Shown piece after piece: positions 18,556 through 27,917 of a stretch of 48,748 nucleotides of DNA. This DNA is from a virus. Both the position numbers and the translations under genes were made by a program. The first letter of the stretch is position 1. Each line of letters begins with the position of its first letter. The notes under the pieces are model-generated. The model made no database searches. It was not told where the DNA came from and saw only the letters and a list, made by a program, of their open reading frames with translations. The stretch is from positions 1-48,748 of IMG/VR virus record IMGVR_UViG_3300020472_000044; one strand, given 5' to 3'.

Positions 18556-20024
18556 TTATTATCCTCCTTCAATCTTATGTATACTTGACGGCCTATTTTC
18601 GTTTGTTCCCAATACTCTTCAGTTTTAGCATACCAACGATATAATGTTGCCGTTCCCTTTTTTGTTTCCTTCTGTAAGAATTGTATAAATTCAGCCTTAC
18701 TAACGTAGCCATCTTTCTTGTCCATCTTACGGTAAACTGATTTCATAACGCCTATACCCGCATTATCAATCATGGTTCGCTTCTCTTCTCGTAGTGCCTC
18801 ATCAAGCCAAGCCACTAGACTCTTATAACATTGACGAATCAAAGAAGATGCTTGAAGCACATTATTGTGTGTTACACGAAATCTTTTACTTTTATCGCTT
18901 ATACTTGGGGCTTCAGCAACACAACATAATATCGCCATCTTTTGAATATGCTTCAAAATCCTATTAATAAATGTCTCCATCGCTTCAAACACTTCGGGCC
19001 TACTATTAGTAATATACTCTTCCATTAGTTCACATTCTCTTAGTAAAGCATCGTTTGCTTCCTTCGTGATAACTACTGTCTTAAGGGGGTCACCGCCCAC
19101 TTCATCGAATCTTTCTTTAAGAGCCTCATAAAGTTTCATAAAAACCTTAGTATATTTATCTTTAGGAATACCCCTATCTTTAATAACTCCCCAATCAGCA
19201 ATTAACTTCCTACGCATTTGTCTTTGTTGGTATTGGGGTACAGTATAGATAAACATTAACATTCTCTGTAAAACTCCTTTAGTAGTAATAAGGTTAGTTA
19301 ATTCTTTTGGTATATATGTTGTAGCATATATTGACCTCCTACATCTACACTCGATAGGTTCATCTCCATCTTTTAACTTCTTAGAAATAACCCAAGTTTC
19401 ACCATGTAAAGTATTCATAAAGGTATTAAGATATACAATTGCTTGTTCTTTATGTTGAGATTGTTTAAACACTCCTGAATATTCAAACTCATCCCACATG
19501 GCTAATCCACTACCCTCTAATTGACCGGGTATGGGTCTACTAACAGTCACGTTTCTCATATTGCCGTTATCATCTTCTACTTGTTCTTGAACCTTTTCAA
19601 AAGAACCTATTAAAGCCGCATCTGTATAATCTGTAATATCAAATATATCAAAATTAGTTAGATGTTTTCTATTTATTTCTTCAAAGGCACTTCTACATAT
19701 TGGTATATACCAATTAGTTAAAGTAGATTTACCTGTTCCTGATGTTTGTAGCCACAGGAATTGAATCCTAGTATCATCTACGTTGTCACCACTAGGTATT
19801 GCTATCATATCTTTCACTAATTGTCCAAGCATTACAAAGAAACTCATTGCTGCCGGCATATTGTTGTAATTAGATGCTTGAATTGCATCTTCAACATATT
19901 GTTCAACGACAGAAGGTAATGTTAACACATCACTTTCTTCGTTATCATTTTCACTATCAATGAAACTATAATACATTTCATCTTCTAAATCAACTATCCC
20001 TTTAAATTTTACATCATCATTCAT
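18552..20024 (-). CDS. DUF3987-like P-loop ATPase, candidate replicative helicase
   Basis: 490 aa. Walker A is TSGTGKS at residues 94-100; the Walker B-like acid pair is AMWDEFEYSG at about 175-184 (D178, E179); a sensor-like strand RRSIYATTYIP and an Arg-rich LQRMLMFIY follow. The C-terminus is a winged-helix-like region (KDGYVSKAEFIQFLQKE to the end). This layout resembles DUF3987 ATPases that accompany primases in mobile elements. It sits two genes from the primase, overlaps the ERCC4 nuclease by ATGA and has GGTGAT before its start. No MCM or other replicative helicase is visible in the window, so this is the best helicase candidate. That role is inference. Confidence 0.6.
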   Translation of the reverse strand: MNDDVKFKGIVDLEDEMYYSFIDSENDNEESDVLTLPSVVEQYVEDAIQASNYNNMPAAMSFFVMLGQLVKDMIAIPSGDNVDDTRIQFLWLQTSGTGKSTLTNWYIPICRSAFEEINRKHLTNFDIFDITDYTDAALIGSFEKVQEQVEDDNGNMRNVTVSRPIPGQLEGSGLAMWDEFEYSGVFKQSQHKEQAIVYLNTFMNTLHGETWVISKKLKDGDEPIECRCRRSIYATTYIPKELTNLITTKGVLQRMLMFIYTVPQYQQRQMRRKLIADWGVIKDRGIPKDKYTKVFMKLYEALKERFDEVGGDPLKTVVITKEANDALLRECELMEEYITNSRPEVFEAMETFINRILKHIQKMAILCCVAEAPSISDKSKRFRVTHNNVLQASSLIRQCYKSLVAWLDEALREEKRTMIDNAGIGVMKSVYRKMDKKDGYVSKAEFIQFLQKETKKGTATLYRWYAKTEEYWEQTKIGRQVYIRLKEDNK

Positions 20025-20701
20025 ACTATCACCTTATCTTCATTATTTAGGGTTTCTATTATTCTTTTTGCTATTGTTGTTCCTATTCCATCTATTATCG
20101 CTAGTTCATTTGGTTCTGCTTCTCCTATTTCCATTATAGAACCAAACACTTCTAATAATTTCTGTGCTTTAGTTTCGCTTACTCCTTTAATATTACATAA
20201 CATATTTACTCTTAGGTCTTCTGTTGTTATCCTTTTTAATAGTGTTGGTTTTATTATTTTTCTATCTATGGGTCTCATTTTACATATTGTTGTTATTATC
20301 TTTGCCGCCTTTCTTGGGCTTTCTACCCAAAAAAGTTTACAGTCTGTGTCTAATGTTATCTTACCAATAGCCCCATAAAACTTATTTTGAAGCATTTGTT
20401 CTGATATTTGCATATTCAGATATGCGGGGTAAGCCATCGCTTGATGTATTGACCCATGTATGATAACAATAGAATGGTCAAAATGCCTATCCATATTATC
20501 TATTTGATTCCACAACCGCTTGTTAATTACAGATTGTAGAAAGTCAATAGTAGATTTTGCTTCAAAGCATACATCATGATACACATAGTCACCTATTTCT
20601 AACCATGCTTTTTCTACTGGTATGTTTAACCTACTAGATTCAGACATAGTATATTCTGCTAAATCAGATGTTTCTCTACTATCAATATATAACTTATCCA
20701 T
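20021..20701 (-). CDS. ERCC4/XPF-type structure-specific nuclease with helix-hairpin-helix tail
   Basis: 226 aa from the ATG at 20701, which forms TAATG with the upstream stop; a GTG nine bases earlier is possible. The nuclease core has IDSRE (D7, E10), EIGDY (D38) and FEAKSTIDF (E47, K49, D53), a variant of the GDx...ERKxxxD signature of the XPF/Mus81 family. The tail (about residues 165-222, with CNIKGVSETKAQKLLEVFGS and IDGIGTTIAKRI) is a tandem helix-hairpin-helix. No helicase domain is present, as in euryarchaeal and viral short forms. Expected role: cutting branched or flap DNA at replication forks or recombination intermediates. Confidence 0.85.
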   Translation of the reverse strand: MDKLYIDSRETSDLAEYTMSESSRLNIPVEKAWLEIGDYVYHDVCFEAKSTIDFLQSVINKRLWNQIDNMDRHFDHSIVIIHGSIHQAMAYPAYLNMQISEQMLQNKFYGAIGKITLDTDCKLFWVESPRKAAKIITTICKMRPIDRKIIKPTLLKRITTEDLRVNMLCNIKGVSETKAQKLLEVFGSIMEIGEAEPNELAIIDGIGTTIAKRIIETLNNEDKVIV

Positions 20702-20832
20702 TAAAACCACCCAAATATCTTTATCATAATTATTACACCAACCATTAGATTAACAAACCCAACAATAGTTCTTGTTAGTGCTAAAGTACCAAAGTGTTTT
20801 TCAGACCAATGTTCTACATCATCACCATTCAT
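20701..20832 (-). CDS. Single-span membrane mini-protein, 43 aa
   Basis: Starts MNGDDVEHWSEKHFGTLALT, then one hydrophobic helix (about residues 22-40, VGFVNLMVGVIIMIKIFG). The ATG is in an ATGA overlap with the primase stop, and its TAA overlaps the nuclease ATG, so it is coupled on both sides. Function unknown. Confidence 0.6.
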   Translation of the reverse strand: MNGDDVEHWSEKHFGTLALTRTIVGFVNLMVGVIIMIKIFGWF

Positions 20833-21827
20833 TCACAATACCTCCAACACTTTCCTACACAATAACCTTGAGGGATTAATCTATCCTTACAACTAGGAGC
20901 ATGATAACCACCATTAACTATATACCATACATTTTTTCTTGTTACAGGTTCATCCCAATCTAACCATATTTCATCTAGAGATGCAATCCTTTTTAATTCA
21001 TTCATAATAATCCCAACTATTTCCTGTTTCTTTTCCATAGGTATATTTCTCTTACGCATTGTTAGTATATCTCTATACCATTGAACCAAATAAACCCTTG
21101 CAAAATGTCCCGGATTCTCTACCATAATCGCATTATGTAAGCATGGTAATATAGGTAATCCTCCATCTATTTGCGGTGCTTCTATTTCAACATCAGACAC
21201 TTCTATTGGTTTTAGTTTGGGCCACTTCATTAAATCTCTAGATATTGTTTTAGATTTTTGTCTAGGTTCTTTAGCCAATCTCAAAATAGCACTAAGTTTA
21301 TAATAATTAACATCGCTATCATTAATGGGAATACAAAAATAATTTTCTTCACTACTGAGATTAACAGTATTAGGTATTCTACGAAGTCTATTAGTTTGGA
21401 TTCCGCTTCTATCAAGAGTAGGATAATTCTTAGCCAATTCGGTAAAATACGCTTGAATGTTTCTAATATCATTTGTTCTCTCACCATATACTATAATATG
21501 AAATCCTTTACCAGAAAAGAATGCATCAAAGGTCATACCCGCACTAAACAGTTTTTCATAAACATCTTTAAAATCAATCCATGCATTTAATAACGGTTCT
21601 CCGTGTGCATCAAAATCTAAAAAGGCTCTATCTATAATCACAGAATCTTCTACCTTTGCCGTTTCAGCGAAATGTTCAAAATCATATACTGTTGTATAAC
21701 AATTCATTATTCCATTAAAGGAGTTTACCCATGTAACAAACTCTTCTTTACTCTTCACTATCTGTCTTTTCATTTGTGGCGCGTTTTTTATGTGACTTCC
21801 CGCCCACACTTCTCTTGGAAATTTCAT
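20829..21827 (-). CDS. Archaeo-eukaryotic primase, PriS core fused to a PriL-like cysteine domain
   Basis: 332 aa from the ATG at 21827 (GAGG upstream); an in-frame start at 21842 is also possible. The catalytic core shows IDRAFLDFDAHG (D71, D73), FFSGKGFHII (S105 to H110, the nucleotide-binding SGKGxH motif) and LDRSGIQTNRLRRIPNT with the third acid D139. The C-terminal third has cysteines at 229 (LPCLHNA), 313 (APSCKD), 323 and 327 (GYCVGKC) plus 331. With the helices between the first two, this resembles the iron-sulfur domain of PriL. So one polypeptide may carry both primase functions. The 5' end overlaps the previous gene by 80 bases. Role: primer synthesis for the viral polymerase. Confidence 0.8.
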   Translation of the reverse strand: MKFPREVWAGSHIKNAPQMKRQIVKSKEEFVTWVNSFNGIMNCYTTVYDFEHFAETAKVEDSVIIDRAFLDFDAHGEPLLNAWIDFKDVYEKLFSAGMTFDAFFSGKGFHIIVYGERTNDIRNIQAYFTELAKNYPTLDRSGIQTNRLRRIPNTVNLSSEENYFCIPINDSDVNYYKLSAILRLAKEPRQKSKTISRDLMKWPKLKPIEVSDVEIEAPQIDGGLPILPCLHNAIMVENPGHFARVYLVQWYRDILTMRKRNIPMEKKQEIVGIIMNELKRIASLDEIWLDWDEPVTRKNVWYIVNGGYHAPSCKDRLIPQGYCVGKCWRYCE

Positions 21828-22116
21828 CTTTATCATCCTCATTAAAATTTATTTTTGCATTTATTAATTGCGTTCTTATTATTACTGCTACATTTTCAGA
21901 TAACACATCTGTTACAGTCTTTTGAAATAATTCTCCAAAAGTCATGCTATCATCATAAAGAGGAGAATCCCAAACCAAGTCTAATTTTCCTTTGGCATCT
22001 AATTCTCCATATACTTCTTGTGTTATTGCTGATATTAACTTATTAAAATCTGTTAACTCAGCAAATGACCAAACCTTTCCCTTTAATTTCTTTTCTACTA
22101 TTTCTTCTATTTTCAT
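21748..22116 (-). CDS. Hypothetical protein between Cas4-like nuclease and primase
   Basis: 122 aa starting MKIEEIVEKKLKGKVWSFAE at the ATG of an ATGA overlap with the nuclease gene. It is mostly helical and charged, with a basic-acidic tail (KRSVGGKSHKKRATNEKTDSEE region) that looks disordered. Not recognised. Its placement and overlap with the primase suggest a replication accessory factor, which is inference. Confidence 0.55.
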   Translation of the reverse strand: MKIEEIVEKKLKGKVWSFAELTDFNKLISAITQEVYGELDAKGKLDLVWDSPLYDDSMTFGELFQKTVTDVLSENVAVIIRTQLINAKINFNEDDKDEISKRSVGGKSHKKRATNEKTDSEE

Positions 22117-22994
22117 AAAAATTGTCCCTCCAAATATGCTGGACACATTTCTTTAAAACTACAATACTCACAAGTCTTATAGTAATATTTAGTATCAAAA
22201 TCTTCGCCTCTATTATGGAAGTCTTCATATGCTTTAATTAATTGAGTTATTCCTCTATAAACTGCGGTCATACTAGACTTCTTTGCCGGCTCTATTTGTA
22301 AGTAATTTGATACAGGGTAATACCAACCCCAATGTGTAATAGGTATGTTTCTATCTATACCTGCCGCTTCTAATACTTCATCGGTAGCATTCTCCACTAA
22401 TAACTTATAGAAAGATAATTCCTTTCTCATACCTGTTAATTTATAATCTTTCCAAGGGCCAGTCTTTAATTCAAGAGGTACATACTTACCATCATCAATA
22501 AACATTCTATCAACAATACCTTGTAAATGTACAATATAATCTCTTTCTAATTCTACTTTAGGATTAATATTTTGAGGTATTACAATCTCAGCATCTAACA
22601 TTACTTCATTGACTACTGGAAGGTAGTCATCTAATGTCTCCATTTCTCTAGCCTCTATAAACCTATTGGCTTCAAAGGTTGCTATATTTTGATATATTTC
22701 TCCGTAGTCATCTATTGGGTGTAATCCCAAATTATATTGAACTAACTCATCAAAGGACATATGTTCTGCCTTTTTTACATCAAACTCATTAAAGAAATCT
22801 TCTCTTACGTTATGCACTACTGTTCCTTTAATCATAGCCTCAGTAGTATCTTGAGGTAATCGCTCATAATATGAGTAATAATACTTCTTAGGACACCATT
22901 GAAACGAGCCAAACGAAGATTTAGTTATCTTCAATATTGGTTCATTTGGGTCATCGAATGTATTAGGATTCCATTGATATGTATATTCTCTCAT
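22113..22994 (-). CDS. Cas4/RecB-like PD-(D/E)XK nuclease with iron-sulfur cysteines
   Basis: 293 aa. An N-terminal KITKSSFGSFQWCPKKYYY holds the first cysteine (C34); HNVRED follows; the nuclease core is HLQGIVDRMF then YVPLELKTG (D and ExK of the PD-(D/E)XK fold); the C-terminus has CEYCSFKEMCPAY, giving the other three cysteines. The four-cysteine arrangement around the nuclease core is that of Cas4 and AddB-type Fe-S nucleases. AGGAGG lies 8 bases before the ATG. No cas1 or CRISPR array is nearby, so a role in processing viral DNA ends or recombination, not spacer acquisition, is likely. Confidence 0.85.
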   Translation of the reverse strand: MREYTYQWNPNTFDDPNEPILKITKSSFGSFQWCPKKYYYSYYERLPQDTTEAMIKGTVVHNVREDFFNEFDVKKAEHMSFDELVQYNLGLHPIDDYGEIYQNIATFEANRFIEAREMETLDDYLPVVNEVMLDAEIVIPQNINPKVELERDYIVHLQGIVDRMFIDDGKYVPLELKTGPWKDYKLTGMRKELSFYKLLVENATDEVLEAAGIDRNIPITHWGWYYPVSNYLQIEPAKKSSMTAVYRGITQLIKAYEDFHNRGEDFDTKYYYKTCEYCSFKEMCPAYLEGQFL

Positions 22995-23062
22995 TCTTTT
23001 GGCCTCCTATAATACATACTTTTTGACCACCATTTTTTTAATAATTTATCTATCATTTTCAT
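22991..23062 (-). CDS. Possible 23-aa basic micro-ORF
   Basis: Fills the gap between the polymerase C-part and the Cas4-like gene: MKMIDKLLKKWWSKSMYYRR and a short tail. It begins two bases past the polymerase stop, has GGTGG before the ATG and ends in an ATGA overlap with the nuclease. It could be a real coupled peptide or only a spacer carrying the nuclease ribosome binding site. Confidence 0.35.
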   Translation of the reverse strand: MKMIDKLLKKWWSKSMYYRRPKE

Positions 23063-23063
23063 T

Positions 23064-23972
23064 TTACCACCATTCATCTAATTGTGTTTGACTTACATCT
23101 TGTTTTATTGGGTCTGTGTCCCAATTCATAGCCTTGTAAATAGGCAATGCTTTCTTAATTATAGATTCTGCGTAATGATGTAAGTCAGGCTTACACAAAT
23201 CTATTAATTCATCCATAGTTTGAGCCGCTATATATGTTGGTCTTTTAGCAACTCCTGTTATTGGGTGAATATACTTTTCTCTTTTAATGTCATCTCTTGC
23301 TTTAATATATACAAACGAGTCATCTATTGAATTACTCATGACTTGATTATACCATACAATGCCTTCAACCCCTGCACCAATGCTAGGATTCTTACCTTGT
23401 TCTGTAACTAAGACTAAGGGTTCTCCACACTTACTACAATAAGATGCACTAAATACTTTATGTTGGTTAATTGCTGATTGCATATCATACTTCTTATTAC
23501 ATTTCTTGCACTTATATTCAAATCGTTCTGGTCTAAATCTAGACCTATTAATTAACTTTTTAACATCATACTTACCATTCAATACATGGTTGTATTGAGT
23601 TTTCAAATCAGTAGTTATTTCTTCTTCTGATTTACCTCCAACCCAATCTTTCAATATCTGTAATTGGGTTTCTTTTGCTAAACCTGTTATTGCTACTCTC
23701 TTAGCAGAAAAACCTGTCATAACAAATTCCGGCTCATCTAAATATTTTCCATCTTTCCAAGATATTAAACCTGCATTTCTATTCTTAGTAATACCTACAC
23801 CTAATGATTGGTAATACTTTTCAAACTCTAATGTGACGGGGTGTTCTTCTAAACCCAACAAATTAGGAAATAATCCCCTAACATGGTTATTCAAAATAGC
23901 CAAAGTCTCAGCAGTTTTATCCATAGGCATTTCTACATATATAGAATCAGTATGTCCATAGACCACTTTCAT
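23064..23972 (-). CDS. polB: DNA polymerase family B, C-terminal fragment (motif C, thumb, PIP box)
   Basis: 302 aa starting MKVVYGHTDSIYVEMP at an ATG with AGGAGG seven bases upstream and an ATGA overlap with the preceding mini-gene. It begins a few residues before motif C, which reads YGHTDS instead of the usual YGDTDS; the second Asp (D9), the one that binds catalytic metal in the family, is kept. Thumb elements follow (GFSAKRVAITGLAK). A four-cysteine zinc ribbon lies at about residues 155-182 (CKKC, SKC). The last eight residues QTQLDEWW match a PCNA-interacting box. It should associate with the N-terminal fragment encoded at 24335-26002. Confidence 0.9.
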   Translation of the reverse strand: MKVVYGHTDSIYVEMPMDKTAETLAILNNHVRGLFPNLLGLEEHPVTLEFEKYYQSLGVGITKNRNAGLISWKDGKYLDEPEFVMTGFSAKRVAITGLAKETQLQILKDWVGGKSEEEITTDLKTQYNHVLNGKYDVKKLINRSRFRPERFEYKCKKCNKKYDMQSAINQHKVFSASYCSKCGEPLVLVTEQGKNPSIGAGVEGIVWYNQVMSNSIDDSFVYIKARDDIKREKYIHPITGVAKRPTYIAAQTMDELIDLCKPDLHHYAESIIKKALPIYKAMNWDTDPIKQDVSQTQLDEWW

Positions 23973-24076
23973 TCTAAAACCTCCTGTTTGCAATAGGTAC
24001 ATCTACCTTTAGTATCAACACACCTTTGCACCTTATTAAATTGACATTGACAATAATATTTATATTTATGTTTCAT
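23969..24076 (-). CDS. Zinc-finger mini-protein in the polymerase break, third of three (35 aa)
   Basis: MKHKYKYYCQCQFNKVQRCV then a RCTYCK pair: cysteines C9, C11, C19, C26 and C29. Start and stop are both in ATGA overlaps with its neighbours. It immediately precedes, and its 3' end carries the ribosome binding site of, the polymerase C-terminal fragment. Only distantly like the two mini-proteins before it. Confidence 0.6.
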   Translation of the reverse strand: MKHKYKYYCQCQFNKVQRCVDTKGRCTYCKQEVLE

Positions 24077-24198
24077 TTTAATCCTTTCTCCTTTCTTTCA
24101 TTTCTTTTAAAGTCCATATAACATTTTTTACAGGTAGTATATGAACCTGCTAGACTACCTCTAAGGTATTCATTACAATTTCTACATCTTTTATTCAT
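24073..24198 (-). CDS. Zinc-finger mini-protein in the polymerase break, second of three (41 aa)
   Basis: MNKRCRNCNEYLRGSLAGSY then TCKKCYMDFKRNER: two CxxC pairs 14 residues apart with a basic tail. It is clearly a paralogue of the mini-protein encoded just upstream at 24201-24338 (shared RC..CN...R.LSGS/SLAGS and C.KCYM.[FY]KR). ATGA overlap with the third mini-gene. Probably nucleic-acid binding; function unknown. Confidence 0.65.
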   Translation of the reverse strand: MNKRCRNCNEYLRGSLAGSYTTCKKCYMDFKRNERKEKGLK

Positions 24199-24200
24199 AC

Positions 24201-24338
24201 CTATTTACTCCTTTGTTTTCTTTTATATTCCATGTAGCATTTACCACATGTATCTGGTTTACTACCACTTAAAGTCCTCATAAGCACATTACATTCTTTA
24301 CATCTTCTATGCCAAGGTTTTTGTCTTATTCTATTCAT
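24201..24338 (-). CDS. Zinc-finger mini-protein in the polymerase break, first of three (45 aa)
   Basis: MNRIRQKPWHRRCKECNVLM then a TCGKCYMEYKRKQR finger: two CxxC pairs and a strongly basic tail. The ATG overlaps the stop of the polymerase N-terminal fragment (ATGA), and two bases separate its stop from the next mini-gene. Together with the second mini-gene it forms a tandem duplicate pair placed inside the broken polymerase gene. Confidence 0.65.
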   Translation of the reverse strand: MNRIRQKPWHRRCKECNVLMRTLSGSKPDTCGKCYMEYKRKQRSK

Positions 24339-26002
24339 AATTCCATCACTTTAAATGCGGCTTCTCTAATAGCCTGTCTTGCGCTTGCAGTAATACTTGC
24401 GGCTAAATCTACATCAGCCCACCCAAATCCTTGATAGGCAACAATACCGTAAAATGAAGCCATCAGTCTTTTAACTGCTAATTGATTATTGTTCCACTTC
24501 GCATACTCATCCTTTGTAGTGGACTCCTTCATGTTTTTCTTATAAGTGTTTCTAAGAGTCTTCAAATGCAATAAAGCACTTGGCAACATTCCCAATTTAT
24601 CAGTCTTATAATATCTGAAATCAAAATCTTCTTCTATGCTAAAATCTCTTGGCGTAGCAATATTCACCGCAAATGCAGTAGGACTGTCTGATTTAGTTTC
24701 CCATGATATATTCCTTGCAATAATCATACTAGGATATAGACCTGCGAAATCAAATGCAGCAACATTAAGATGTAGGCCATTTGTTCCTTCAGTCATAGGG
24801 TCATAAATCATTGCCCCTTGATAATCAGTCTTTGGCCCTTGCACACCTGTTGGTGCTTTCCAATTAGCGTTTCTCATAAAATATACACTACCCATATTAC
24901 TTGCATAAAAACAAGCATCAAATGGTGCAATTAGTAATCGTTGTAATGCCAATACAGATTCTGAAATATAATTTTCTTCATCAATCCTAGCAATTAATTC
25001 AACATCTTTTTTAGCATAGTCCATGTAGGTTTGTGAATCTTCAAGCCAAGCCTTGGCGAAAAACTCATTTTTATCTGGGAACTTCTCACTCACCATTTTC
25101 TTCTCACCCAATACAGTTTCAGCCACATAATCTAATGCTAAAGAAGGGAGTGTCCCTTTTTGTGCATCATTCCATTGGCGTTCAAACGCTAAATCTAAAT
25201 TTAGTAAGATTCTTCCCCTAATAGGTTGAGCAATCGGAGAATAATTTTGAACCTTTCTCGATAATTTCAAGCCTTCATTGTAATAGACTCCATCAACGTC
25301 ACCATAAGGTGATAGTTTTCTGGGGTCTAATCCATTAGCATGAAGTCTTTCTATTAATTTTGGCAGGTCGAATTTAGAACCGAACCAAGAAATCATCATA
25401 TCGGGGTCACATCTATCTAACCAAGATACAAAACTCCTTAACATTTCTATCTCGGACTCATGCCTAAACATAGTATCGGAATAATCTCCTACGGCAGTAG
25501 GCGGGAACCAATGAAAATTCCACATTTTTTCTTCATGGTTATCATAAACTACGATACAAGTAATCATTTCATCGAATTCGCCACCTTGTTGCCACTCCAT
25601 ATCCCAATACCACTTCTTTAGTGTGTATTCGGGTATTTCATTTATTTCATCTACCATATATCTATAATGAAAAGGTACATCTGCTTCAAAGGTTTCATCC
25701 CATTCATTCCGTAATGCCTTACAATGGTAAGGTGCGGGAGGATTCCATGTCACTTTTTTTAACAATCTCCCATCAAGAGATACAGAACCATCTCTTTCAT
25801 AGAATAACTCTATCTTCTGACTAAAACTACCAAACCCACTTTTTGTTGTATACTTAACAAATGGCATCTCTCTTGCCGTTTCTAAAATATAAAAGTACGG
25901 GTTGAAGTTATGATAAGATACAGTCTTATCTATTCTATTTCCATCTTTATCTCGGTATCTAATACCGAATTTTAAATCCTTATCTATTGCATTTATAATC
26001 AT
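24335..26002 (-). CDS. polB: DNA polymerase family B, N-terminal fragment (exonuclease, palm motifs A and B)
   Basis: 555 aa. Proofreading motifs: ExoI WYWDMEW (D134, E136), ExoII WFGSKFDLPKL (Asp kept, the usual Asn not obvious) and ExoIII YMDYAKKD. Polymerase motif A is DFAGLYPSMI and motif B is VKRLMASFYG (the usual Asn of KxxxNSxYG is Ala). The frame ends ...REAAFKVMEL and stop, just where an intact enzyme would run into ..FKVVYGDTDS. No intein sequence is present at the junction. It follows PCNA with a one-base gap. With the fragment at 23064-23972 it would make a full-length replicative polymerase of about 857 aa, a normal size for the family. Confidence 0.92.
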   Translation of the reverse strand: MIINAIDKDLKFGIRYRDKDGNRIDKTVSYHNFNPYFYILETAREMPFVKYTTKSGFGSFSQKIELFYERDGSVSLDGRLLKKVTWNPPAPYHCKALRNEWDETFEADVPFHYRYMVDEINEIPEYTLKKWYWDMEWQQGGEFDEMITCIVVYDNHEEKMWNFHWFPPTAVGDYSDTMFRHESEIEMLRSFVSWLDRCDPDMMISWFGSKFDLPKLIERLHANGLDPRKLSPYGDVDGVYYNEGLKLSRKVQNYSPIAQPIRGRILLNLDLAFERQWNDAQKGTLPSLALDYVAETVLGEKKMVSEKFPDKNEFFAKAWLEDSQTYMDYAKKDVELIARIDEENYISESVLALQRLLIAPFDACFYASNMGSVYFMRNANWKAPTGVQGPKTDYQGAMIYDPMTEGTNGLHLNVAAFDFAGLYPSMIIARNISWETKSDSPTAFAVNIATPRDFSIEEDFDFRYYKTDKLGMLPSALLHLKTLRNTYKKNMKESTTKDEYAKWNNNQLAVKRLMASFYGIVAYQGFGWADVDLAASITASARQAIREAAFKVMEL

Positions 26003-26003
26003 T

Positions 26004-26792
26004 TTAATTCGCCCTTATATATGGTGCCATTACTAACTTTTTACTATCCCCAATTAGTAATAGCGGTTTGTCATCTTGTAAATAAAATAACATTGTTCCT
26101 TCGCAGAATTTACCTATGGGTGCAGTAAATTCAACGGTTGCGGGTTCACCTACTCCGCGTATAATTGGAATGGTAGTTCTATACTTATCTGTTTTATGGA
26201 AATTACTTGATGTAATTTCAAAGACTTCCCCCACTCCTTCATAATTTATTTTGTATGTAGCACTACCAACACTTTGTAGTTTTTTAATGGCCTTTGCCAA
26301 TAAACTACCCTCAAATACTATACAAGTATCTAATAATGTTTTACCAAACATAGCAGTATCACCACTAATTGACATAGACTTTAATCTACTAACAAAGTTA
26401 ATATTTCTATGTTCAACAGAAAGCGGCATAGTAAAACTACTACCGTCTTGATGTATGAATAAATCATCACCTTTCGATATATTAATATTGCTTTGTTTAT
26501 CCATAGTCTTAAGATACTTTAAACACTTTTCAATATCAAAAAAGAACATTCCCGGTTCAAAGGCATGTTCAATAGGAGTTCCTACAAAATTATATTCGGC
26601 GGCTATGGTGGCCCCTGCATTAGACAATGTAATTAAACATTCATTTTCTATTACAGAGGATTCCACCATACACACAACAGTACTATTAATCACATCAGTC
26701 TTTGAGACATTTAATGATTTATACTTACCCTTTAATAGCACTAATTCTAAACCATGAATAAAATCTTGAATATGACAAGAAAAGGTAATCAT
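26004..26792 (-). CDS. pcn: Sliding clamp, PCNA-like
   Basis: 262 aa, the usual length of an archaeal PCNA. The N-terminus MITFSCHIQDFIHGLELVLL, alternating strands and helices in two halves, and the C-terminal strand pair GTMLFYLQDDKPLLLIG followed by MAPYI (the equivalent of the ..L.YYLAPRI end) match the clamp fold. It is divergent, so the call also leans on context: it lies directly upstream of polymerase B and in the same array as an RFC subunit. The ATG is in an ATGA overlap with the ATPase gene before it. Confidence 0.8.
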   Translation of the reverse strand: MITFSCHIQDFIHGLELVLLKGKYKSLNVSKTDVINSTVVCMVESSVIENECLITLSNAGATIAAEYNFVGTPIEHAFEPGMFFFDIEKCLKYLKTMDKQSNINISKGDDLFIHQDGSSFTMPLSVEHRNINFVSRLKSMSISGDTAMFGKTLLDTCIVFEGSLLAKAIKKLQSVGSATYKINYEGVGEVFEITSSNFHKTDKYRTTIPIIRGVGEPATVEFTAPIGKFCEGTMLFYLQDDKPLLLIGDSKKLVMAPYIRAN

Positions 26793-27625
26793 ATATTCCC
26801 CTCACGTAATTCGGGTATTCCGTGCCAAACTACATCAGGGGCTTTACCATCTCTAGTAATCCATGTCTTTCCTACTAAACTCCCATTTGTTCGGCTTGCT
26901 ACTAATTGAGCATGAAACTTAACTTCACCTTTCTTAATGGTTCTCCATGTTCTAATTTCTTGCTCTAACTTACCTCCCCAATTCTTCCAAGCAGGAATTT
27001 TACCGGTTGCTACATCATTAATATAACTATCAGTTTCGTGAGTAATATATATTACATCACACTCTAAAGAATAAACCGCTTCCATTAAGAATGAAAAGGT
27101 CTTATTCCTTTCCCCATATTGCCAAGGCATAATTTTTGTGACCTTTGTTGGGTCAGGATTAACCTTTAACAAACAGGACTCTAACCAAGTATCAACACCA
27201 TCAAACACAAATACAGGTTTCTCTCCTGCCTGAATTTGTTGCCTAACCATGTTAATAAACATCAAAGAGTTCTTCTCTGAGACATTAATATCAGTTACAT
27301 TTTTCTTATTCTTCTTAATAGGACAGTATATCTTTATCCTATCTGTTGCATCGTGGTGTTCTCTCCAAGTGGATTCAACACCCCTATCCCAATCAAGAAC
27401 ATAAATAGGTCTATTAGGAAAATCAAGAGAAAGACCAGTCTTTCCGGTCTTTTCTATTCCCCAAATACCTAATACAAGTCTTGATGAAGATTCTTGTTTC
27501 TTCAAGAATGTCTTAGCATATTGCTTATTCCATTCTTCTTGTTCTTTACCAAAGTCTATTTCTTCGGCTACTTCTAACTTTTCTTTACTAACTGCTTCTG
27601 TTGTTTTTTCAGTTGTCCAACTCAT
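26789..27625 (-). CDS. Sak4/RadA-like recombination ATPase
   Basis: 278 aa from the ATG at 27625, preceded by GGTGAT. A RecA-fold core has Walker A GIEKTGKT (residues 56-63), then PIYVLDWDRGVESTW, a strand VFVFDGVDTW as the Walker B region, CDVIYITHE and later strands. The single-domain size and the GxxxxGKT...LD.D.G pattern fit the Sak4 group of viral RecA-like recombinases used in annealing and recombination-dependent replication. It overlaps a small upstream gene by 17 bases and PCNA by ATGA. Confidence 0.75.
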   Translation of the reverse strand: MSWTTEKTTEAVSKEKLEVAEEIDFGKEQEEWNKQYAKTFLKKQESSSRLVLGIWGIEKTGKTGLSLDFPNRPIYVLDWDRGVESTWREHHDATDRIKIYCPIKKNKKNVTDINVSEKNSLMFINMVRQQIQAGEKPVFVFDGVDTWLESCLLKVNPDPTKVTKIMPWQYGERNKTFSFLMEAVYSLECDVIYITHETDSYINDVATGKIPAWKNWGGKLEQEIRTWRTIKKGEVKFHAQLVASRTNGSLVGKTWITRDGKAPDVVWHGIPELREGNI

Positions 27626-27851
27626 TATAATCACCTAATTCTAATTCATATTGTCCATTATAGATTTCATCTACAATATCTCGTAAGTCCATATCACTTA
27701 CTTTTATTCTAATTTCCTTACCGGAGGGTAAATGTAATTTCACCCAATAATCGCCAGTATCATCATTCTTTCTCCATGTCACAAACTCTACACTATCTAA
27801 CGATACTGCAAAGGAAACGTCATGAATCATTCTATTTTCTATTTTAAACAT
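27609..27851 (-). CDS. Hypothetical beta-rich protein, 80 aa
   Basis: MFKIENRMIHDVSFAVSLDS, then strands with VEFVTWRKNDDTGDYWVKLH and an acidic tail (NGQYELELGDYNELDN). AGAGGAA precedes the ATG, directly after the twin hairpins. Not recognised. Position between an SSB-like gene and a recombinase hints at a DNA-metabolism role. Confidence 0.55.
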   Translation of the reverse strand: MFKIENRMIHDVSFAVSLDSVEFVTWRKNDDTGDYWVKLHLPSGKEIRIKVSDMDLRDIVDEIYNGQYELELGDYNELDN

Positions 27852-27866
27852 TTTAATTCCTCTTTT

Positions 27867-27906
27867 GTGGGCCTCGCACCCACCTGTCGGTCACTACCAC
27901 CGATAG
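27867..27906 (-). promoter_or_regulatory. Twin hairpin element in an otherwise gap-free operon
   Basis: In the 66-base gap between the SSB-like and 80-aa genes, the minus strand forms two adjacent hairpins: CTATCGGT with ACCGACAG (one mismatch, loop GGTAGTG) and GTGGG with CCCAC (loop TGCGAGG). Both loops are seven bases. This GC-rich stretch stands out in an AT-rich operon. It may be an attenuator, an RNA-processing or stability element, or a protein-binding site. The second hairpin looks like a tRNA T-arm, but no complete tRNA can be folded. Confidence 0.5.
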
Positions 27907-27917
27907 GATATTTAACT

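Follow-up and report, generated by a model that had tools for sequence, protein, structure and literature searches.

Three zinc-finger-like mini-genes at the break of a magrovirus split DNA polymerase B gene are probably exchangeable cargo

Introduction

Magroviruses are tailed viruses of Poseidoniales (PMC10768690), and the ICTV genome map of Aoguangviridae labels a PolB-NTD and a PolB-CTD (PMC10768690), so the split of the magrovirus DNA polymerase B (PolB) itself is already known. In the T4-like Aeromonas phages 25 and 44RR, gp43 (PolB) is also split, and nrdA/mobE of phage Aeh1 is another gene in pieces (PMC2988022); the halves of the phage 25 split gp43 co-purify and are active (PMC2988022). 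Among small cysteine-rich proteins, several haloarchaeal zinc-finger micro-proteins affect stress adaptation, biofilm formation or swarming (PMC11241148, PMC6562870), while not all haloarchaeal four-cysteine mini-proteins bind zinc (PMC11241148). The literature searched, which did not cover Philosof 2017 and Prabhu 2025, yielded no description of variable cargo at the polymerase junction, nor of an unsplit sister clade.

In this study, a 48.7-kb virus record with a magrovirus-like (Poseidoniales virus) replication module, analyzed over its whole length and hereafter called the window, was compared with its relatives at the PolB break.

Results

Three coupled mini-genes between the PolB parts

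The replication module of the window carries genes for PolB, PCNA, a RecA-like ATPase, primase, an ERCC4-type nuclease, an AAA protein, clamp loader, TFB and ligase, all names except PolB being read from the sequence. The closest relatives found are IMG/VR contigs with 56–77% identity in the N-terminal PolB part (polN; n = 80 relatives), and megablast of window positions 20000–29000 against phage records gave no match. A first-pass annotation had placed three coupled ORFs of 45, 41 and 35 codons with paired cysteines between the two polymerase parts, the first two as tandem paralogues, and each of these points was borne out. The coordinates were confirmed, and the three ORFs fit exactly between polN and the C-terminal part, polC (Table 1).

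Table 1. Genes at the PolB break of the window
Feature	Coordinates	Strand	Length	Description
PolB N-terminal part (polN)	24335..26002	-	555 aa	Exonuclease domain, motifs A and B; ends ...AAFKVMEL(stop); Pfam DNA_pol_B 3.6e-21, exo1 8.8e-8
ORF1	24201..24338	-	45 aa	Putative zinc-finger mini-gene, family A1 (CxxC...CGKCY..KR..R); ATGA overlap with polN
ORF2	24073..24198	-	41 aa	Putative zinc-finger mini-gene, family A1, paralogue of ORF1; Shine-Dalgarno aaaggag upstream
ORF3	23969..24076	-	35 aa	Putative zinc-finger mini-gene, family A2 (CxCQ.N...C..C); ATGA overlaps with ORF2 and polC
PolB C-terminal part (polC)	23064..23972	-	302 aa	ATG at 23972; starts MKVVYGHTDS (motif C); Pfam DNA_pol_B 2.6e-10

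Three of the four joins (polN/ORF1, ORF2/ORF3 and ORF3/polC) are ATGA overlaps, and ORF1 and ORF2 are spaced by 2 nt. Shine-Dalgarno-like sequences precede ORF2 (aaaggag), ORF3 (gaaaggag) and polC (caggagg), with a weak one only for ORF1. Those of ORF2, ORF3 and polC sit within the tail codons of the preceding gene, so the K/R/E-rich tails may be partly shaped by that need. BLASTP aligned ORF1 and ORF2 with an E value of 1e-9 (41% identity over 34 aa), and their similarity score was reached by 0 of 5000 shuffles with fixed cysteines; by sequence comparison, the two are paralogues (family A1), and ORF3 belongs to a separate family (A2).

Conservation and predicted fold of the A1 and A2 families

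The four cysteines are invariant across 11 diverged A1 members, and those of A2 are invariant as CxC...CxxC. The window's own ORF pair is too diverged (saturated), so that its dN/dS is unusable, whereas five independent close A1 pairs, one of them away from the break, gave hand-pooled values of 27/568 for pN (0.048) and 28/128 for pS (0.22). The ratio near 0.22 points to purifying selection on A1. The basic tail is likewise kept in A1 members outside the break.

An AlphaFold2 model of ORF1 (pLDDT 76) contains a beta-hairpin (strands 10–12 and 19–21) and a C-terminal helix (32–44), with the second cysteine pair at the start of the predicted helix, while a Foldseek search with this model returned no match below an E value of 0.1. 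Profile searches against Pfam and PDB gave only sub-threshold or generic zinc-finger matches for ORF1 and ORF2, and none for ORF3. The model would agree with a minimal treble clef; ORF1 and ORF2 are probably small zinc fingers of this kind, which would bind zinc. Compared with the C(P)XCG micro-proteins, the three products are within the length of <70 aa, but their motifs (CKEC/CGKC, CRNC/CKKC and CQC/CTYC) lack the following G. A search of cellular genomes for A1 produced 43 pattern matches, 0 of which were confirmed, and nothing convincing was found among INPHARED phages.

A single split site and an unsplit sister group

PolB is divided at one and the same residue, immediately ahead of motif C, in every one of the 128 relatives that have both halves. 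An alignment that included unsplit halovirus PolBs placed the end of polN after the helix following motif B and the start of polC just before YGHTDS; the two adjacent frames jointly make a complete PolB with nothing essential lost, PF00136 being matched on both parts. Stop codons were absent from the polN and polC alignments (89 of 89 distinct junctions clean), and an SD-like motif lies before polC in 69/89 junctions.

One A1-like protein pointed to an unsplit PolB, and from there to an unsplit sister group of 60 loci (L182–L241). These are marine viral contigs, many of 60–65 kb, whose PolB shares about 35% identity with the polN product of the window. The split site is crossed in one frame, with YGHTDS kept, by all 57 loci that span it, the other 3 of the 60 being cut short. 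In the tree, split and unsplit PolBs form two clades with a support of 100. Because the split PolBs group together and the unsplit sister has the same YGHTDS, one PolB fission in the ancestor of the sampled magroviruses is likely. In the closest unsplit sisters, the residue at the split position is Met (RGM-EVIYGHTDS), suggesting that the start codon may have pre-existed. An intein or split-intein origin was rejected, as polN ends with KVMEL and a stop codon and polC begins with MKVVYGHTDS, without any extra sequence.

Several features of the polymerase itself were also observed. Motif C is YGHTDS or YAHTDS, not YGDTDS, in 89/89 split junctions (23943–23972 in the window), that is, the first Asp of this catalytic motif is changed to His in all of them, as also in the 57/57 unsplit sisters. 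A zinc-ribbon insertion of the CxxC...CxxC type (Zn_ribbon_SprT, 1.3e-5, just short of the Pfam cut-off) in the window's PolB-C (23064–23972) is absent from the PolB-C of L078. The window's polN (24335–26002) is nearest to L001 and its polC (23064–23972), by identity, to L008, which hints at an exchange at the break. Although the window takes different positions in the polN and polC trees, an AU test did not reject a common clade (p 0.167), so a recombinational exchange of polymerase halves is not claimed.

Turnover of genes at the junction

The polN/polC gap was assayed at 89 distinct junctions from metagenomic contigs with automatic ORF calls; near-duplicate contigs occur among the loci, so these junctions are not independent. 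The gap ranges from 2 to 1356 nt; in the comparison with other gaps of the replication operon, it has a median of 362 nt and a maximum of 1353 nt, and is ≥100 nt in 94% of junctions. It has the largest median of these gaps and one of the widest spreads: most other operon neighbors have a median spacing of 0–80 nt, and two other long gaps, which vary little in length, each hold one mid-sized gene in the window. The junctions together contain 253 chained ORFs in about 63 mini-gene clusters, many being filled by hydrophobic or other unrelated mini-proteins, while 4 are empty with both PolB halves intact.

Pairs of close relatives display this turnover directly. L055 is empty, its halves joined by TAATG, while L048 has 362 nt with one 120-aa gene, and both flanks are 89% identical. 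Clean single-gene indels separate L094 from L095 (the ORF3 family) and L036 from L031 (a 114-aa Rep-type HUH gene, L036 5410–5754; Pfam Viral_Rep 4.4e-17), and L039 and L045 differ by another clean gain or loss. The HUH endonuclease of L036, not present in its close relative L031, is of a kind seen in small ssDNA viruses.

Some of the clusters also occur elsewhere in the replication operon. In the window, break mini-gene families of the relatives were seen at two other junctions, at 20701–20832 and 34976–35131, namely a hydrophobic peptide with an FxTLAL motif and a CxxC...CxxC protein (MKPCFNC...); mini-genes thus appear to recur at several slots.

Distribution of A1, A2 and other double-CxxC mini-genes

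HMM searches of the 89 distinct junctions detected A1 in 15 (L031 and L047 among them) and A2 in 8; both occur in 5, either in 18, and neither in 71. A1 and A2 stand together at the break in the window, L004, L005/L006 and L094, and L142, like the window, has a tandem pair of A1 genes. Regarding the conservation of the mini-genes in relatives, no stops or lost cysteines were found where they occur, but they are absent from most relatives with a split PolB. Both families persist over a deep clade, and this persistence with the co-occurrence in 5 junctions makes a lineage-specific link to the polymerase possible.

In the 20 whole records searched, strong A1 matches in G001, G004 and G018 lie within break regions that are among the loci, as do strong A2 matches in G002 and G018, and only G019 has an A1 outside. 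In the cargo-free relatives G005, G006 and G007, no convincing A1 or A2 match was found elsewhere in the record, a weak kind of evidence for absence as these records may be fragments. A1 relatives are also present in viral contigs without a recognizable split PolB.

More generally, double-CxxC mini-ORFs occur in the sense frame at 42/89 homologous junctions vs. 0/89 in antisense. Near the unsplit PolBs, they occur in 57/60 loci in sense vs. 3/60 in antisense, and the window has 7 on the replication strand and 0 on the opposite strand. In a halovirus, annotated zinc-finger mini-genes adjoin an intact PolB.

Endonuclease genes at the break

An HNH-like ORF lies in the break of one lineage (L145/L146/L152; phrog_7785, E 9e-4), and the break of L127 holds a zinc finger of HNH type (phrog_15471, E 0.004), so that HNH-like junctions amount to at most 4 of 89. 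A Pfam search found no endonuclease ORF in the window's break, and profile searches detected no nuclease motif in ORF1–ORF3. These searches gave no clear match to homing-endonuclease zinc fingers either, the best E values being 0.91 for Pfam HNH_5 (ORF2) and 0.073–0.075 for PHROG HNH, and no nuclease fusion was seen. Endonuclease genes do visit the slot, and nothing in the sequences ties them to ORF1–ORF3.

Discussion

The findings above are probably best explained if the magrovirus PolB gene was cut once and the break then served as a slot for changing mini-genes, with ORF1–ORF3 as cargo, neither the cause of the cut nor obligate subunits. A single fission would have fallen in the short link between the post-motif-B helix and the motif C strand, in the common ancestor of the magroviruses sampled. 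Both halves would be translated off one message by termination-reinitiation, and presumably assemble to one polymerase, as reported for the T4-like split gp43. As only a stop/start pair would form the join, the enzyme could tolerate there the insertion of a small gene that brings its own start and, in its tail, the next Shine-Dalgarno site, and in this way the junction may have become a turnover slot whose mini-genes would be expressed along with the replication operon. In the window, the cargo would consist of two paralogous minimal treble-clef-like zinc fingers plus an unrelated CxC/CxxC mini-protein, which selection would keep in one clade. Rather than being subunits of the polymerase, they would most likely work in trans, as small regulators of infection that bind nucleic acids or proteins.

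The first-pass annotation had instead suggested that the mini-genes either arrived with the element that split the gene or bridge the split polymerase. As to the former, the zinc fingers could be remnants of a homing endonuclease that split polB and has since lost its nuclease domain, given that endonucleases sit inside split genes of T4-like phages (PMC2988022), that HNH-like sequences occupy the L145/L146/L152 and L127 breaks, and that three A1 members weakly match an HNH family (best E 0.073–0.075). This is improbable, since ORF1–ORF3 lack a nuclease motif but possess conserved cysteines, coupling signals and starts of their own; the split is clade-wide (128/128) while A1 or A2 occurs in 18/89 junctions, with other genes in most of the remaining ones and 4 empty; and A1 genes are also found away from a split PolB. 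As HNH-like genes visit the junction, a distant role in the first break or in the delivery of cargo is nevertheless possible. A role of the mini-proteins as additional subunits, bridging or stabilizing the split polymerase in the window's lineage, would agree with the position of ORF1–ORF3 between both halves, with their translational coupling signals and with the joint retention of A1 and A2 in the window, L004, L005/L006 and L094. This is no more probable, in view of the empty junctions with intact halves, the 71/89 junctions without A1 and A2, the clean loss or gain of the ORF3 family between L095 and L094, the unrelated mini-proteins elsewhere in the slot and the A1 genes apart from split PolB. 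Turnover of cargo alone does not prove each cargo irrelevant to the polymerase.

It is least credible that ORF1–ORF3 are spurious, or a spacer whose protein sequence is irrelevant, with, e.g., only the ribosome-binding tails mattering: the K/R/E-rich tails do coincide with the next gene's Shine-Dalgarno sequence, which may impose part of their conservation, but the cysteines are invariant in 11 diverged A1 members, double-CxxC ORFs are in sense at 42/89 junctions vs. 0 in antisense, pN is well under pS in close pairs, and the basic tail is kept away from the break. Rather unlikely, although ahead of these readings, is that the fission point is a dedicated dock with directed recruitment, for example by visiting HUH/HNH endonucleases or by recombination between the conserved motif B and motif C flanks, and that some of its interchangeable cargo modulates the split polymerase or host takeover in a lineage-specific way.

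If the single cut and the exchangeable cargo hold, one break in an essential enzyme gene gave rise to a permissive site of gene capture throughout a large, abundant group of ocean viruses. Its empty, filled and pre-fission states are all at hand for comparison, and the system offers both a library of some 60 uncharacterized mini-gene clusters from Poseidoniales viruses and a simple way to learn if split replicative polymerases depend on helpers.

Compared with known systems, ORF1–ORF3 resemble the haloarchaeal micro-proteins by features alone (<70 aa, four cysteines in two pairs and an archaeal setting), but are without the strict C(P)XCG signature. Similar to the zinc fingers of HNH/GIY-YIG homing endonucleases (I-TevI type), they are small Cys-rich modules, with the weak HNH profile similarity of A1, but they are free-standing, have no nuclease domain and are not tied to the split. 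The PolB arrangement of the window is the same as the PolB-NTD/CTD of Aoguangviridae (PMC10768690). As in the split gp43 and Aeh1 nrdA/mobE, an essential replication enzyme is encoded by two neighboring pieces that are separated by foreign or untranslated sequence. In contrast to those phage genes, the magrovirus fission is fixed in every relative examined, and its junctions, where not empty, hold about 63 turning-over clusters rather than one endonuclease.
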